From the NCBI GenBank assembly GCA_030539275.1, contig JAUNSK010000018.1:22865-86864 (forward strand): 64,000 nt of DNA. Reading direction: 5' to 3'. Positions 38,187-42,299 of the stretch are shown here, one piece after another. The position numbers and the translations under genes are program-made. Numbering within the stretch: position 1 is the first letter of the stretch; every line of letters starts with the position of its first letter. Source of the DNA: Oscillospiraceae bacterium (lineage in GTDB: Bacteria; Bacillota; Clostridia; Oscillospirales; Ruminococcaceae). The notes under the pieces were generated by a model that was not told where the DNA came from, did no database searches, and worked only from the letters and a program-made list of their open reading frames with translations.

Positions 38187-39359
38187 TCAGAAATAACTGA
38201 CCTTTATCCTTTTGCCCATCTGCCTGAGGCATTTTGACAGTTCCTCAACAAGATTCATTTTGATGCTGAAGTTGATGGGAAGATCAGGATTCTGATGAGC
38301 AGGATTTATGGCACGTCCGACATAGAAGTTAATGTCGGTAGCCTCCTCGAACAACAGTCTGCAGATAAGTGAAGCACCGTCACGGCTGCAGCTCCAGTGT
38401 TCATAGAGCTTATTGTCTGTCAGGTAGTCCTTTGCATATGTGAGGACTTTATTAATTGTAATAACGCCCTCTGTTACAAGGTCTACTCCTTCAATCTCAG
38501 CTGTCGGGGGTACGTCCTTGTCTATAAAATCAATATGTGGTTTAAGTGGTTTTCCGAGATATGATGCTGCTATTGTTGATGTAGTGCCGCCGCAGATAAT
38601 GTGCTTTCCATGCTTTGAGAAAAACAGACTCATCATTCTGTCGCAGTCATTCCTGTCAGACGGAGGACCGAAAAGAATATTCATAGGTTCACGCCTGCGT
38701 ACACGTACGACACATGCAGTGGCATCATCGCCGGGTTTATAGTCATAAAGCTTGTTGCACTCATCAGTCAGTATTGTGGCTATTGTTTTTGCAGTATATC
38801 CAACGGGTGCTATGGTTTCCATAAATGAAATAATGTCTTCGCGTTTCCAGCCGAAGTTAAAGGCAAGTCCTATTCCGGCATGCGGACATCCGTCACTCAT
38901 GGCTATGAAAATATCATTCTCCTCAAGAGTTATATATGACTTGTAGATCTTCTTTCCGCCGATAAGCATTTCAGTCCTGGGATAATCATAGTTTACAAAG
39001 TCTCTGAGAACGATGATATGTGGATTGTCGTACTGAATTATTTCAGCATGTTCATTTTCAACTATGTGGATTATAGTGAAGGTAGAATAAGCGACACCTC
39101 TCACTGAGCATACGGGGAGAGTAGCTGCTATTGTTTCAACACAGTCCTCAAGTGAAAGGCCTTCAGCCATCATGGTAGATATGATCTTTGAAGTAAGGGT
39201 TGAGAGAATGCTGGCTTTTACGCCGCTTCCGAGACCGTCTGCAAGAACGACCACAGTTGAATTTTCATTTTGTTCTACAATGTCAACATGATCGCCGCAA
39301 AGCTGTTCGCCGTAGTGAAATATGCTCTGAAAGCCGATATCAGTACAAAGATCATTCAT
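38187..39359 (-). CDS. SpoIIE/PP2C-family phosphatase of the hydrogenase operon
   Basis: The first 220 residues form a PP2C/SpoIIE phosphatase domain with metal-binding Asp41 in VVVLADGLGSGVKAS, Asp155 in AMSDGCPHAG and a third in PGDDATACVV. The last 170 residues are a separate domain (from NILFGPPSDRNDC) with CGGTTSTIAASYLG; I do not recognise it, though it recurs on phosphatases linked to sensory [FeFe]-hydrogenases. Its ATG overlaps the hydrogenase gene by 8 bp, with AAGGAG inside that gene, so the two are translationally coupled. The probable role is Ser/Thr dephosphorylation of a regulator in response to the hydrogenase state. Confidence 0.88.
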   Translation of the reverse strand: MNDLCTDIGFQSIFHYGEQLCGDHVDIVEQNENSTVVVLADGLGSGVKASILSTLTSKIISTMMAEGLSLEDCVETIAATLPVCSVRGVAYSTFTIIHIVENEHAEIIQYDNPHIIVLRDFVNYDYPRTEMLIGGKKIYKSYITLEENDIFIAMSDGCPHAGIGLAFNFGWKREDIISFMETIAPVGYTAKTIATILTDECNKLYDYKPGDDATACVVRVRRREPMNILFGPPSDRNDCDRMMSLFFSKHGKHIICGGTTSTIAASYLGKPLKPHIDFIDKDVPPTAEIEGVDLVTEGVITINKVLTYAKDYLTDNKLYEHWSCSRDGASLICRLLFEEATDINFYVGRAINPAHQNPDLPINFSIKMNLVEELSKCLRQMGKRIKVSYF

Positions 39360-41028
39360 CGCGTATCGACTCCTTCAGCTTAGTAAGTGCAATTTTAGTT
39401 TCTGCAGCAGTTTCACCGAGCAGAGATGCGATTTCCTGAACGATACGCATCTGTTTGTCTACTACATTGTCAGCTATCTCAATCGTCTTGCGGCTTATTT
39501 CTTCCTTCTTCTTTCTCTGTGTCTCTTCCTGTGTTACATCACGCATTATGCAAAGAATAATATGAAATTCCTTGTCATATGTGATCGTCTGTTCTACATA
39601 CTTCTGGTATTCAGCCAGATATATACGCTGATCCTTAATGCTGCAGCCTGTGTTTTTGACTTCCATAAACGGTTTAGGTTCAAGAATCCTGATAACCTGG
39701 TCGCCAAGCACATCAGACTGGTTTCTTATGTTCATGATATTCATTGCTGCCTTGTTGATCTGCTGTACCTCCAGATCATCATTGAGTACCATCAGTCCGT
39801 TAGGAGTATTGTTGATGATATTGTCTGAAAAGCTTTCTGCTTTGTCCTTCAGATACGGGAGGCACATTGAGATCTCAGCTTTGCCCTGGTAGATCGCAAC
39901 TGCTTTTTCACGGCATGTGTTATAGCCGCATGAGCCGCAGTTGAGCTCATCATCAGGGTTTGATTTTCCCATCTGCTTGAGAATTGACTTTATCTCAGAT
40001 TCAGACGGCATCTGCAGCTTCCTGTCTATATATTCGAGTGTCTTCTGTAAAGCCTGAGGCTCAGGCTGTGAAACTTCAAAATCTTTTTTTCCGGCAAAGT
40101 TGGATATTGAGATGTAGTCACTTACAGGGTTCCTGTGGAATTTCTCCATAACAGGTCCGCCTATACAGCTGCCTGAGCATGCAGACATTTCAATAAAGCA
40201 CCTGTGTATTTTTCCCTGTTCAATGTCGCGCAGAGCTGCAATGCAGTTTTCCACTCCGTCGATAGCCATATATGTGTAGTCAGGATTATCTTTTGCCATG
40301 GTTTTCAGAATCCCGCCGGTAGTCGGGAAAAATCTTGCCTTGCTTTTTTCATCGCTGTCCATGATCTTTTCAAGTTCAACATTTTCTTTCTTAAACCACT
40401 GAGTAAGTTCTTCAAAAGTAAGAACGGCATCAGTATATCCTTCATAATAAGCTGCTTCATCTTTTTTTGCAACACATGGTCCGATAAATACTGTTTTTGC
40501 TTTCGGATTCATTTTCTTTATTTCACTGCAGTGTGCCTGCATCGGGGAGATGACATCAGCCAGATACGGCAGGGCTTTCTGGAAATGCTTCTGTATAAGA
40601 AGATTTACAGAATGACAGCAGGATGAAATAAGAACATCCCTGGTGTTTTCACGCAGAATCCTGTCGTACTCATTTTTTACGATTGTAGCACCGACAGCTG
40701 TTTCCTGCACATCATAAAATCCCAGTTTCTTAAGTGCGTTTCGCATAGCATTTATTCCGACACCTTCGTAGTTTGCTGCAAATGAAGGAGCAAGACTTAC
40801 GTAGACCGGATCTCCGCTCTGGATAAGTACTCTGACCTTTTCAGTCTCATCAACGATCTCTTTGGCATTCTGCGGACATACAACAAAGCACTGACCGCAA
40901 AGAATACATTCGTTTCCTACAATATGGGCCTGATTTCCTGAAAATCGTATGGATTTGACAGGACAGTGACGGATGCATTTGTAGCAGTTTTTGCAGTTTG
41001 ATTTTTTCAGCTTCAGACAATCAGCCAT
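39352..41028 (-). CDS. hydS: PAS-containing sensory [FeFe]-hydrogenase
   Basis: Two 4Fe-4S ferredoxin motifs come first (C12-x2-C-x2-C-x3-C22 and C41-x2-C-x2-C-x3-C51). The H-cluster domain follows with L1 SSCC (Cys137-138), L2 GPCVAKKDE (Cys185) and L3 [12 protein letters not shown] (Cys284, Cys288). A further cluster motif is CGSCGYNTC with Cys389, then a PAS domain (about 400-510) and a C-terminal coiled coil. The L1 Pro and the L3 GGGQP tail of catalytic hydrogenases are altered (SSCCHS, GGPVM). This is the group C layout, thought to sense H2 rather than to turn it over. 558 residues. Hydrogenase maturases hydEFG are not in the window. Confidence 0.93.
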   Translation of the reverse strand: [558 protein letters not shown]

Positions 41029-41033
41029 TGATA

Positions 41034-41297: not shown

Positions 41298-41537
41298 CTA
41301 CACCTTTGCCAATACCTGTTTTTCGAAAAATTCCTTGGTAGTTTCCGGAGTAAGTGAGAAGTTTTCGTTATCAACAGTAACACATACTCCGTTCTGGCAG
41401 GTTCCCATGCAGAATGTGCCTGCAAGTTCAACCTTATCCTTGAGATCATTGCTTGCTATGAGATACTGAAGCTGTTCTACTACCTGTCTTGAGCCTTTGA
41501 GATGACATGAACTGCCTATACAAACTGTTATTTTCAT
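41298..41537 (-). CDS. Thioredoxin-like [2Fe-2S] protein 2 (NuoE C-terminal type)
   Basis: A 79-residue paralogue of the next gene with the same cysteine positions, C6, C11, C43 and C47 (CIGSSC, FCMGTC). AAGGAGG precedes the ATG. The pair arose by tandem duplication and diverged outside the cluster region. Two separate small [2Fe-2S] carriers could form distinct redox complexes with the sensory hydrogenase. Confidence 0.9.
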   Translation of the reverse strand: MKITVCIGSSCHLKGSRQVVEQLQYLIASNDLKDKVELAGTFCMGTCQNGVCVTVDNENFSLTPETTKEFFEKQVLAKV

Positions 41538-41549
41538 TATTTGTCCTCC

Positions 41550-42299
41550 TTATTCGTAATCAACGACATTTACCCAGGAAAGTAAAAATTCACGTTCATT
41601 TTCTTTTCCTTTGGAAAGCTGTGAAGCGGCTACTATCGGGAGCCATTTCTGGACATACTGCTTTGCAGTATCGCTCTTTTTGCAGAAAAGCTCCAGATAC
41701 TTGTCAGCGCCGCTGATATCACCGGCAAGCCAGAAAGTAAGATATGTTCTGGCTGCATCTGCAGATGCATTGCCCTGGGTTGCGTGTGACCAGTCAATAA
41801 TGTATGCAGTACCGTTATCTGACATGATGATGTTGCTGGGATTGAAGTCGCCATGACATACTTTATGGTGTTTCGGCATTGCTTCAAGACGTGTATGGAG
41901 ATCATAGCGTGTTGTTGCATCGAGAGGAGCAGCCTGGATCTTTGCGTTCATCTTGTCCTTAAGTTTGTTAAGAAGAGGAGCATTCATATCATGAACAGAA
42001 ATCTGAAGCTCAACGAACAGCTCAAGATACTCATCTGCTTTATCCGGATTTTCCTGCATAAGCTGAGCAAGAGTTTTTCCGCTTATGTAATCACTTACGA
42101 TAGCCCACCTGGAGTCGATCATTGTGATCTCACGGATCTTAGGAATGTTAAGGCCTGTTTCCTCAATACGTGACTGGTTAAGTGCTTCGTTAAGAACATC
42201 GGCCTTTGAATAGTCAGTATCAAATACTTTGACACACAGATCTTCATCACGATAGACTGTTTTATTGTTTCTGACTGCGATTACTCTGTCTAATTTCAT
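41550..42299 (-). CDS. APH-fold phosphotransferase (kinase-like), first gene of hydrogenase operon
   Basis: A 249-residue aminoglycoside phosphotransferase/choline kinase-fold protein. Lys24 in LCVKVF is the probable ATP lysine, the catalytic loop is CHGDFNPSNII (HGD 149-151) and the metal site IIDW has Asp169. The fold phosphorylates small molecules or proteins; the acceptor is unknown. It begins the operon, 12 bp before the first [2Fe-2S] gene, and is the only kinase-like protein in it, opposite the terminal PP2C phosphatase. AAAGGAG precedes the ATG. Antibiotic resistance is unlikely in this context. Confidence 0.88.
   Translation of the reverse strand: MKLDRVIAVRNNKTVYRDEDLCVKVFDTDYSKADVLNEALNQSRIEETGLNIPKIREITMIDSRWAIVSDYISGKTLAQLMQENPDKADEYLELFVELQISVHDMNAPLLNKLKDKMNAKIQAAPLDATTRYDLHTRLEAMPKHHKVCHGDFNPSNIIMSDNGTAYIIDWSHATQGNASADAARTYLTFWLAGDISGADKYLELFCKKSDTAKQYVQKWLPIVAASQLSKGKENEREFLLSWVNVVDYE

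Follow-up and report, generated by a model that had tools for sequence, protein, structure and literature searches.

An Oscillospiraceae operon that probably joins a hydrogen-sensing HydS–PP2C module to the kinase of an AdhE module

A 64,000-nucleotide stretch of contig JAUNSK010000018.1 from an Oscillospiraceae bacterium (GenBank assembly GCA_030539275.1; hereafter the window) carries five closely packed genes for a kinase-like protein of the APH fold, two thioredoxin-like [2Fe-2S] proteins, the sensory-type [FeFe]-hydrogenase HydS and a SpoIIE/PP2C phosphatase. Across relatives the kinase lies mostly beside adhE and HydS mostly with PP2C, and the operon therefore probably joins a known hydrogen-sensing module (HydS–PP2C) to the kinase of an AdhE module. 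Membership of the operon in the HydS/Hfs hydrogen-sensing systems is part of this two-module reading, and it is only jointly that we hold the two to be probable. The gene order recurs in tens of genomes, which is more than chance would give. An earlier reading of the same DNA, made from the sequence alone (the sequence-only reading), had proposed that the hydrogenase controls a phosphorylation cycle in which the kinase adds and the phosphatase removes phosphate.

The case for AdhE, an enzyme of ethanol formation, comes from the neighbours of the kinase. In 247 genomes sampled from the order (E <= 1e-30 for the kinase, <= 1e-150 for AdhE, <= 1e-100 for HydS), the kinase occupies 101 places in 82 genomes and AdhE 102 places in 96; adhE ends 0–212 bp before the kinase at 60 of the 101 places, HydS follows within 6.5 kb at 36, and both neighbours are present at 21. 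An AdhE of at least 70% identity is found in 72 of the 82 kinase-bearing genomes, and a HydS of at least 50% in 43. The kinase stands right behind AdhE at 60 of the 86 places where AdhE reaches 70% identity and at none of the 16 where it is lower. Merging 177 rows, with matches shorter than 225 residues or below 42% identity left out, gave 152 distinct kinase proteins; adhE lies just upstream in 130 of the 151 testable copies and HydS downstream in 104 of the 142 testable, and 32 of the 38 copies without HydS follow adhE. Judged by these neighbourhoods, adhE is the steadier neighbour of the kinase, and the first place in the operon that the sequence-only reading gave the kinase gene is not typical. 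Of 43 kinase loci picked for having no HydS, 34 have adhE just upstream and one of the other nine lies at a contig edge; at two loci (L237, L257) a 30–32% identical hydrogenase lies downstream instead of HydS. Outside the order the family is rare (5 of 348 phylum-wide genomes, 3 of these within the order), and the two out-of-order copies (L266, L267) also have adhE upstream; a Collinsella aerofaciens record, from another phylum, holds a bare adhE–kinase pair (kinase 47% identity). Locus and copy counts throughout are uncorrected for genome relatedness.

That the two modules recombine follows from three mosaic loci. In L094 and L105, AdhE (86%) and the kinase (76–78%) are close to the query proteins, whereas HydS (39–40%) and PP2C (45–47%) are distant; in L092 the identities are 78%, 76%, 49% and 55%, respectively. 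There the kinase goes with AdhE, and in L094 and L105 these identities indicate that the AdhE–kinase pair is joined to a different sensor module. Over 49 loci, the correlation of distances is r = 0.97 between HydS and PP2C, and for the kinase it is 0.63 with PP2C, 0.60 with HydS and 0.66 with AdhE. On a FastTree phylogeny of the kinase, in which 60 of the 149 inner branches have weak support, at least 10 changes are needed to explain the adhE link and 17 to explain the HydS link; the window kinase groups, with weak support, among copies having adhE in front.

HydS, for its part, keeps to the phosphatase. The sampled genomes hold 78 HydS places in 74 genomes; 77 of these (the window's own left out) and 9 loci from another search make up a set of 86. 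PP2C follows HydS directly in 82, three others lie at a contig edge and one has no PP2C, in agreement with the earlier statement that sensory hydrogenases have PP2C partners. In 79 loci a [2Fe-2S] family protein is encoded within 1 kb upstream, and in 56 another hydrogenase gene follows downstream. The kinase occurs at 37 loci, in three of them more than 2.5 kb upstream. Among the 78 HydS places, its presence upstream varies with how similar HydS is to that of the window: 31 of 41 places at 65% identity or more, 5 of 17 at 50–65% and 0 of 20 below 50%. At loci lacking the APH gene, the three upstream genes scanned (an FlK-like thioesterase, a PPIC isomerase and a radical SAM protein) included no other kinase taking its place; upstream frames of about 800 residues in L249 and L250 had no Pfam match and may be wrong calls. 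Six loci (L170, L171, L179, L180, L181, L185), of which L170 has the kinase, carry an additional gene for a small protein of about 130–160 residues, lying after the [2Fe-2S] gene and just before hydS; the L179 copy strongly matches the fluoroacetyl-CoA thioesterase FlK (E 1.9e-39).

Anchoring on the kinase instead, a scan of GTDB species genomes gave at least 592 pattern matches and 581 relatives, from which the best 80 loci were kept; this set is biased because it holds the closest relatives only. Among these 80, the kinase is followed by a [2Fe-2S] gene in 77, HydS is visible downstream in 74 (the remaining three of the 77 run off the contig) and PP2C in 68, six more stopping at a contig end first; three (L040, L078, L100) have none of the three genes behind the kinase. 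The adjacency across many Clostridia by which the sequence-only reading proposed to recognise a functional unit is thus there, and the kinase gene is beside hydS in far more than this one genome, as the 36 places above show. The idea that the arrangement is unique to the host was ruled out by these loci and by plasmid pRUMAL01 of the rumen bacterium Ruminococcus albus 7, and an exclusive partnership of the kinase with hydS was ruled out because HydS is missing downstream of 38 of the 142 testable copies. Two variant arrangements were seen: about 4 kb of co-directional genes part kinase–[2Fe-2S] from HydS–PP2C in L144, L151 and L209, including a protein of about 624 residues and a further hydrogenase of 568–585 residues, perhaps a HydABC-type set, and in L257 the kinase and [2Fe-2S] gene are followed directly by a hydA2-type hydrogenase of about 474 residues, with no HydS or PP2C match between.

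The sensor itself is well defined. Pfam finds Fe_hyd_lg_C (E 3.1e-51) together with N-terminal 4Fe-4S and C-terminal FeS domains in HydS, and in an alignment of 21 members the eight N-terminal 4Fe-4S cysteines (C12, C15, C18, C22, C41, C44, C47, C51), the H-cluster cysteines (C138, C185, C284, C288, whose individual roles we assign by assumption) and the C-terminal Cx2Cx4Cx16C site (C364, C367, C372, C389) are invariant. The FeS domain PF04060 is matched in all 21 and PAS (PF00989) in 19 at E <= 0.01; the window protein, counted among the 21, has no PAS match in Pfam at E 0.01, and its PAS region is assigned by alignment. With that qualification, its sequence places it, as the sequence-only reading had it, among the group C sensory [FeFe]-hydrogenases (HydS/HfsB). 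Thermotoga maritima HydS and other group C (M2f) enzymes likewise combine the H-domain with the C-terminal FeS site and PAS, the motif being as given for them in the relevant passage of PMC8163306. The last 30 or so residues (about 522–552) are rich in invariant columns and nearly unchanged even among proteins of 35–40% identity; this stretch may be a helix through which HydS docks onto, or signals to, the phosphatase encoded by the overlapping gene.

The phosphatase matches SpoIIE in Pfam (E 1.8e-14), and the top Foldseek match of its model is SpoIIE 5mqh (E 9.5e-13). Residues D41–G42, D156–G157 and D211–D212 are invariant in 26 of 26 aligned phosphatases; the aspartates D41, D156, D211 and D212 presumably bind the metals. 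Beyond the PP2C/SpoIIE domain there is an extra C-terminal part of about 170 residues, and the model has a mean pLDDT (predicted local distance difference test) of 86. The 8-bp overlap of the hydS and PP2C genes has the same length in R. albus 7.

The operon has close relatives among known systems. On pRUMAL01 (NC_014824, 137906–147916) the order is LysR–Rex–adhE–kinase–2Fe2S–2Fe2S–hydS–PP2C–hydA2: the five window genes appear in the same order, with identities of 69% for the kinase (RUMAL_RS17360, ‘phosphotransferase’), 71% for HydS and 77% for PP2C, but the plasmid cluster opens with LysR, rex and adhE and closes with a hydA2-type gene, all of which the window operon lacks. An eight-gene R. 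albus cluster with an A1 (ferredoxin-only) hydrogenase, AdhE and a sensory hydrogenase, classed as group C, fell 111-fold when R. albus was grown together with an H2 consumer, according to the sections of PMC6776011 that treat it; by our own count its eight genes run from rex to hydA2. In Thermoanaerobacterium the hfs operon comprises HfsA, HfsB (the PAS hydrogenase), HfsC (a serine phosphatase) and HfsD (HydA2-like), as listed in PMC11837493. Deletion of hfsB, the hydS homologue, gave more ethanol, apparently partly through adhE expression, and HfsC and HfsD were required for high ethanol yield (statements in PMC5707799). The hfsABCD operon of T. saccharolyticum is like that of the window in that a PAS hydrogenase is followed by a serine phosphatase, and it has a regulatory link to adhE (passages of PMC5707799 and PMC11837493); it differs in including HfsD and in that the four genes listed there contain no kinase. 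The direct succession of hydS and PP2C is shared with both systems, and the hydA2-type gene that comes next in them is missing from the window. The sequence-only reading held a kinase-fold partner to be no described part of such systems, a claim weakened by R. albus 7, which has the gene in the same operon, and by the adjacent Ser/Thr kinase proposed by Zheng et al. (2014), as cited in PMC5707799. The operon belongs to an already known class. As to the adhE–kinase neighbourhood, the literature searched offered no description of an APH-type gene next to adhE or hydS, a weak negative since most subscription papers lie outside its coverage.

In the host genome the R. albus-type cluster appears to be split in two. 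A second kinase copy, 69% identical to that of the window, lies directly after adhE on contig C19. Another adhE, on contig C23, has a LysR-like gene on one side; on the other, beyond a small HTH gene, comes a hydA2-like hydrogenase of 479 residues. These genes look like the ends of the cluster that the window lacks.

Several observations weigh against the two-module reading. The window kinase itself adjoins the HydS module and not adhE, and 26 of the 101 kinase places have neither neighbour, some of them being contig ends or distant copies. No kinase stands directly behind AdhE at 26 of 86 places of at least 70% identity and at all 16 of lower identity; therefore AdhE does not need the kinase. 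About half of the rows behind the distinct copies stem from the closest-80 kinase set. Without the three mosaic loci, moreover, kinase distances track PP2C (r = 0.85) and HydS (0.80) better than AdhE (0.69), a pattern that inheritance as a single operon would produce, though co-function would too.

What the kinase does must be judged from its family, fold and residues. It scores 53.2 bits against the Pfam APH model (cut-off 23.2; E 4.7e-14) and falls far under the cut-offs of the NCBIfam APH models; by family score it is not an antibiotic-resistance gene. The Pfam protein kinase model (Pkinase) stays below its cut-off (22.5 against 31.7 bits), which does not exclude protein substrates. Its nearest structures in two fold searches are the small-molecule kinases APH(3')-Ia, APH(4)-Ia, LicA choline kinase and homoserine kinase, which are APH/choline-kinase fold enzymes of 10–17% identity to it; protein kinases are absent from the best 50 matches of each search, an absence that by itself shows nothing. 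At sequence level the family profile also has short, weak matches in protein kinases such as StkP, and weak ones in Bud32-type proteins. Residues K24, E38, H149 and N156 are kept in all 152 distinct copies, D151 in 149 and D169 in 151, with K24, D151 and D169 together in 148; we take the lysine, the HGDxxxxN motif and the aspartate of the DFG-like site to have their usual roles. In fold and catalytic motifs, then, the protein is an APH-fold phosphotransferase. At the thresholds used, no residue signature splits HydS-linked from other copies among the 152. Three divergent copies (L260, L261, L262) have HGN in place of the catalytic-loop HGD, and neither HydS nor an upstream adhE, L262 having adhE just downstream.

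Under the two-module reading, H2 would poise the H-cluster of HydS, and the redox state would be relayed by way of the FeS sites and the PAS region to the C-terminal stretch, which would set the activity of the PP2C phosphatase. The latter would act on a putative phosphoprotein that controls fermentation genes, adhE and hydA2 among them. The kinase would be a component of a separate AdhE plus kinase module that in many relatives stands directly before HydS–PP2C in a longer cluster; most likely it would have AdhE itself or an AdhE-linked metabolite as its substrate, would be made when the hydrogen sensor calls for ethanol, and would not be the obligatory counter-kinase of PP2C. Gene order, families, catalytic residues and distribution are observed; we infer the signal path, the phosphatase target and the kinase substrate.

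The cycle, in which an APH-fold protein kinase and PP2C as counter-phosphatase have the same protein as their target and H2, through HydS, decides the balance between them, strikes us as unlikely. Its tight adjacency stands, with kinase and [2Fe-2S] gene co-operonic in 77 of the best 80 kinase loci, and so do the intact catalytic residues of the kinase (K24, D151 and D169 included) and the invariant aspartates of PP2C; the kinase–PP2C correlation outside the mosaic loci also speaks for it, as does a proposal by Zheng et al. (2014), as cited in PMC5707799, that the signal passes to an adjacent Ser/Thr kinase, which may or may not be the APH-fold one. The obligatory pairing does not hold up so well: a kinase and a phosphatase bound to travel together are hard to square with a kinase in 37 of 86 HydS loci, 47 of the other 49 having at least 1.5 kb and 42 at least 6 kb of upstream sequence in which none is visible, nor with the 38 kinase copies that have no HydS downstream. 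The best structural matches, being small-molecule kinases, and the low Pkinase score argue against it too. Those same matches, together with the family, favour a small-molecule kinase of alcohol or aldehyde metabolism or of the repair of AdhE by-products, merely co-regulated with the hydrogen sensor and without signalling role, which we regard as a real but lesser possibility. This view fits the adhE–kinase pairs that no HydS follows (32 of the 152 distinct copies, and Collinsella). Against it stand the many AdhE without a kinase, the weak profile matches to protein kinases and Bud32-type proteins, and the kinases that keep to HydS without adhE in front, in the window and 12 other distinct copies; we also know of no AdhE metabolite that needs phosphorylation. 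The probabilities that we attach to the two-module reading and to these two alternatives overlap, because the former leaves the kinase substrate open.

A passenger without function in either module, carried along in a mobile and at times plasmid-borne fermentation cluster, seems very improbable. The R. albus 7 cluster does lie on a plasmid and cluster parts are often shuffled, as the 17 changes of HydS link indicate, but the position right after adhE is common to two phyla, the catalytic residues are intact in 148 of 152 copies and the host retains two kinase copies. Rather doubtful, finally, is a dedicated AdhE kinase, in which the APH-fold protein would phosphorylate AdhE and, where joined to HydS–PP2C, the phosphatase would remove the mark.

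The features of the operon are collected below. Recomputed open reading frames (42299–38187; gaps of 12, 3 and 5 bp, then the overlap) agree exactly with the layout given in the sequence-only reading, and Pfam recovers the APH, [2Fe-2S], hydrogenase and SpoIIE families that it named, both small proteins matching 2Fe-2S_thioredx (E 3.8e-8 and 2.9e-9).

Features of the operon and its flanks in the window
Feature	Position	Strand	Evidence
APH-fold kinase-like gene, 249 aa; motifs K24, E38, HGD 149–151, N156, D169	41550..42299	-	ORF, Pfam, fold, alignment
Thioredoxin-like [2Fe-2S] protein 1, 79 aa, Cx4C...Cx3C	41298..41537	-	ORF, Pfam
Thioredoxin-like [2Fe-2S] protein 2, 86 aa	41034..41294	-	ORF, Pfam
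HydS, sensory-type [FeFe]-hydrogenase, 558 aa	39352..41028	-	ORF, Pfam, alignment
SpoIIE/PP2C phosphatase, 390 aa, 8-bp overlap with hydS	38187..39359	-	ORF, Pfam, alignment, model, Foldseek
Terminator-like hairpin, 17 pairs, 3' of operon	38108..38146	-	Terminator scan with shuffled control
Leader, 127 bp, between operon and upstream histidine kinase gene	42300..42426	-	ORF calls, promoter scan

The region has four terminator-like sites against a shuffled mean of 3.2, the operon's hairpin (38146–38108) having the longest stem of the four; the next gene past it is a convergent MATE gene (36754–38100), with no hydA2-type gene there. The leader holds one promoter-like pair, TTCAAA/TATTAT (42350–42323), a consensus match only, with a pair count (14) not above chance (shuffled mean 10.7, standard deviation 3.4). 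A Rex-type site (consensus TTGTTAANNNNTTAACAA) before the operon was rejected: its one match, with three mismatches (42323–42340), gains no evidence because the window holds nine such matches against 8.6 expected. Directly upstream on the same strand, by Pfam, lie a hybrid histidine kinase with a family-3 solute-binding domain (42427–45159) and then a LacI-like periplasmic-binding/GGDEF protein (45215–47527). The three flanking window genes scanned include no RsbW-like HATPase or STAS antagonist of an RsbU/RsbW/RsbV switch, a genome-wide STAS search not having been made. Elsewhere in the host, a second sensory-type hydrogenase cluster (contig C45; L218:13178–16782), divergent from HydA/HydB-kind hydrogenase genes, encodes a DRTGG protein, a HATPase, a 435-residue [FeFe]-hydrogenase without PAS match, a PHP protein and a second HATPase, and on contig C19 (L221:7597–12786) a 584-residue [FeFe]-hydrogenase-like gene is followed by a hybrid histidine kinase of 1080 residues.

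AdhE forms filaments, and if a dedicated AdhE kinase did exist, H2 pressure would govern ethanol formation by acting on the enzyme as well as through transcription. The switching of gut and rumen fermenters between ethanol and acetate as H2 changes matters for methane output and for ethanol engineering, and the link from a HydS-type sensor to adhE is known genetically while its middle steps are not. The kinase found behind adhE in many Clostridia and in the Collinsella record, often tied to a hydrogen sensor, is a candidate for a missing step, and its place mainly beside adhE suggests a connection, so far unexplored, between H2 and ethanol production.

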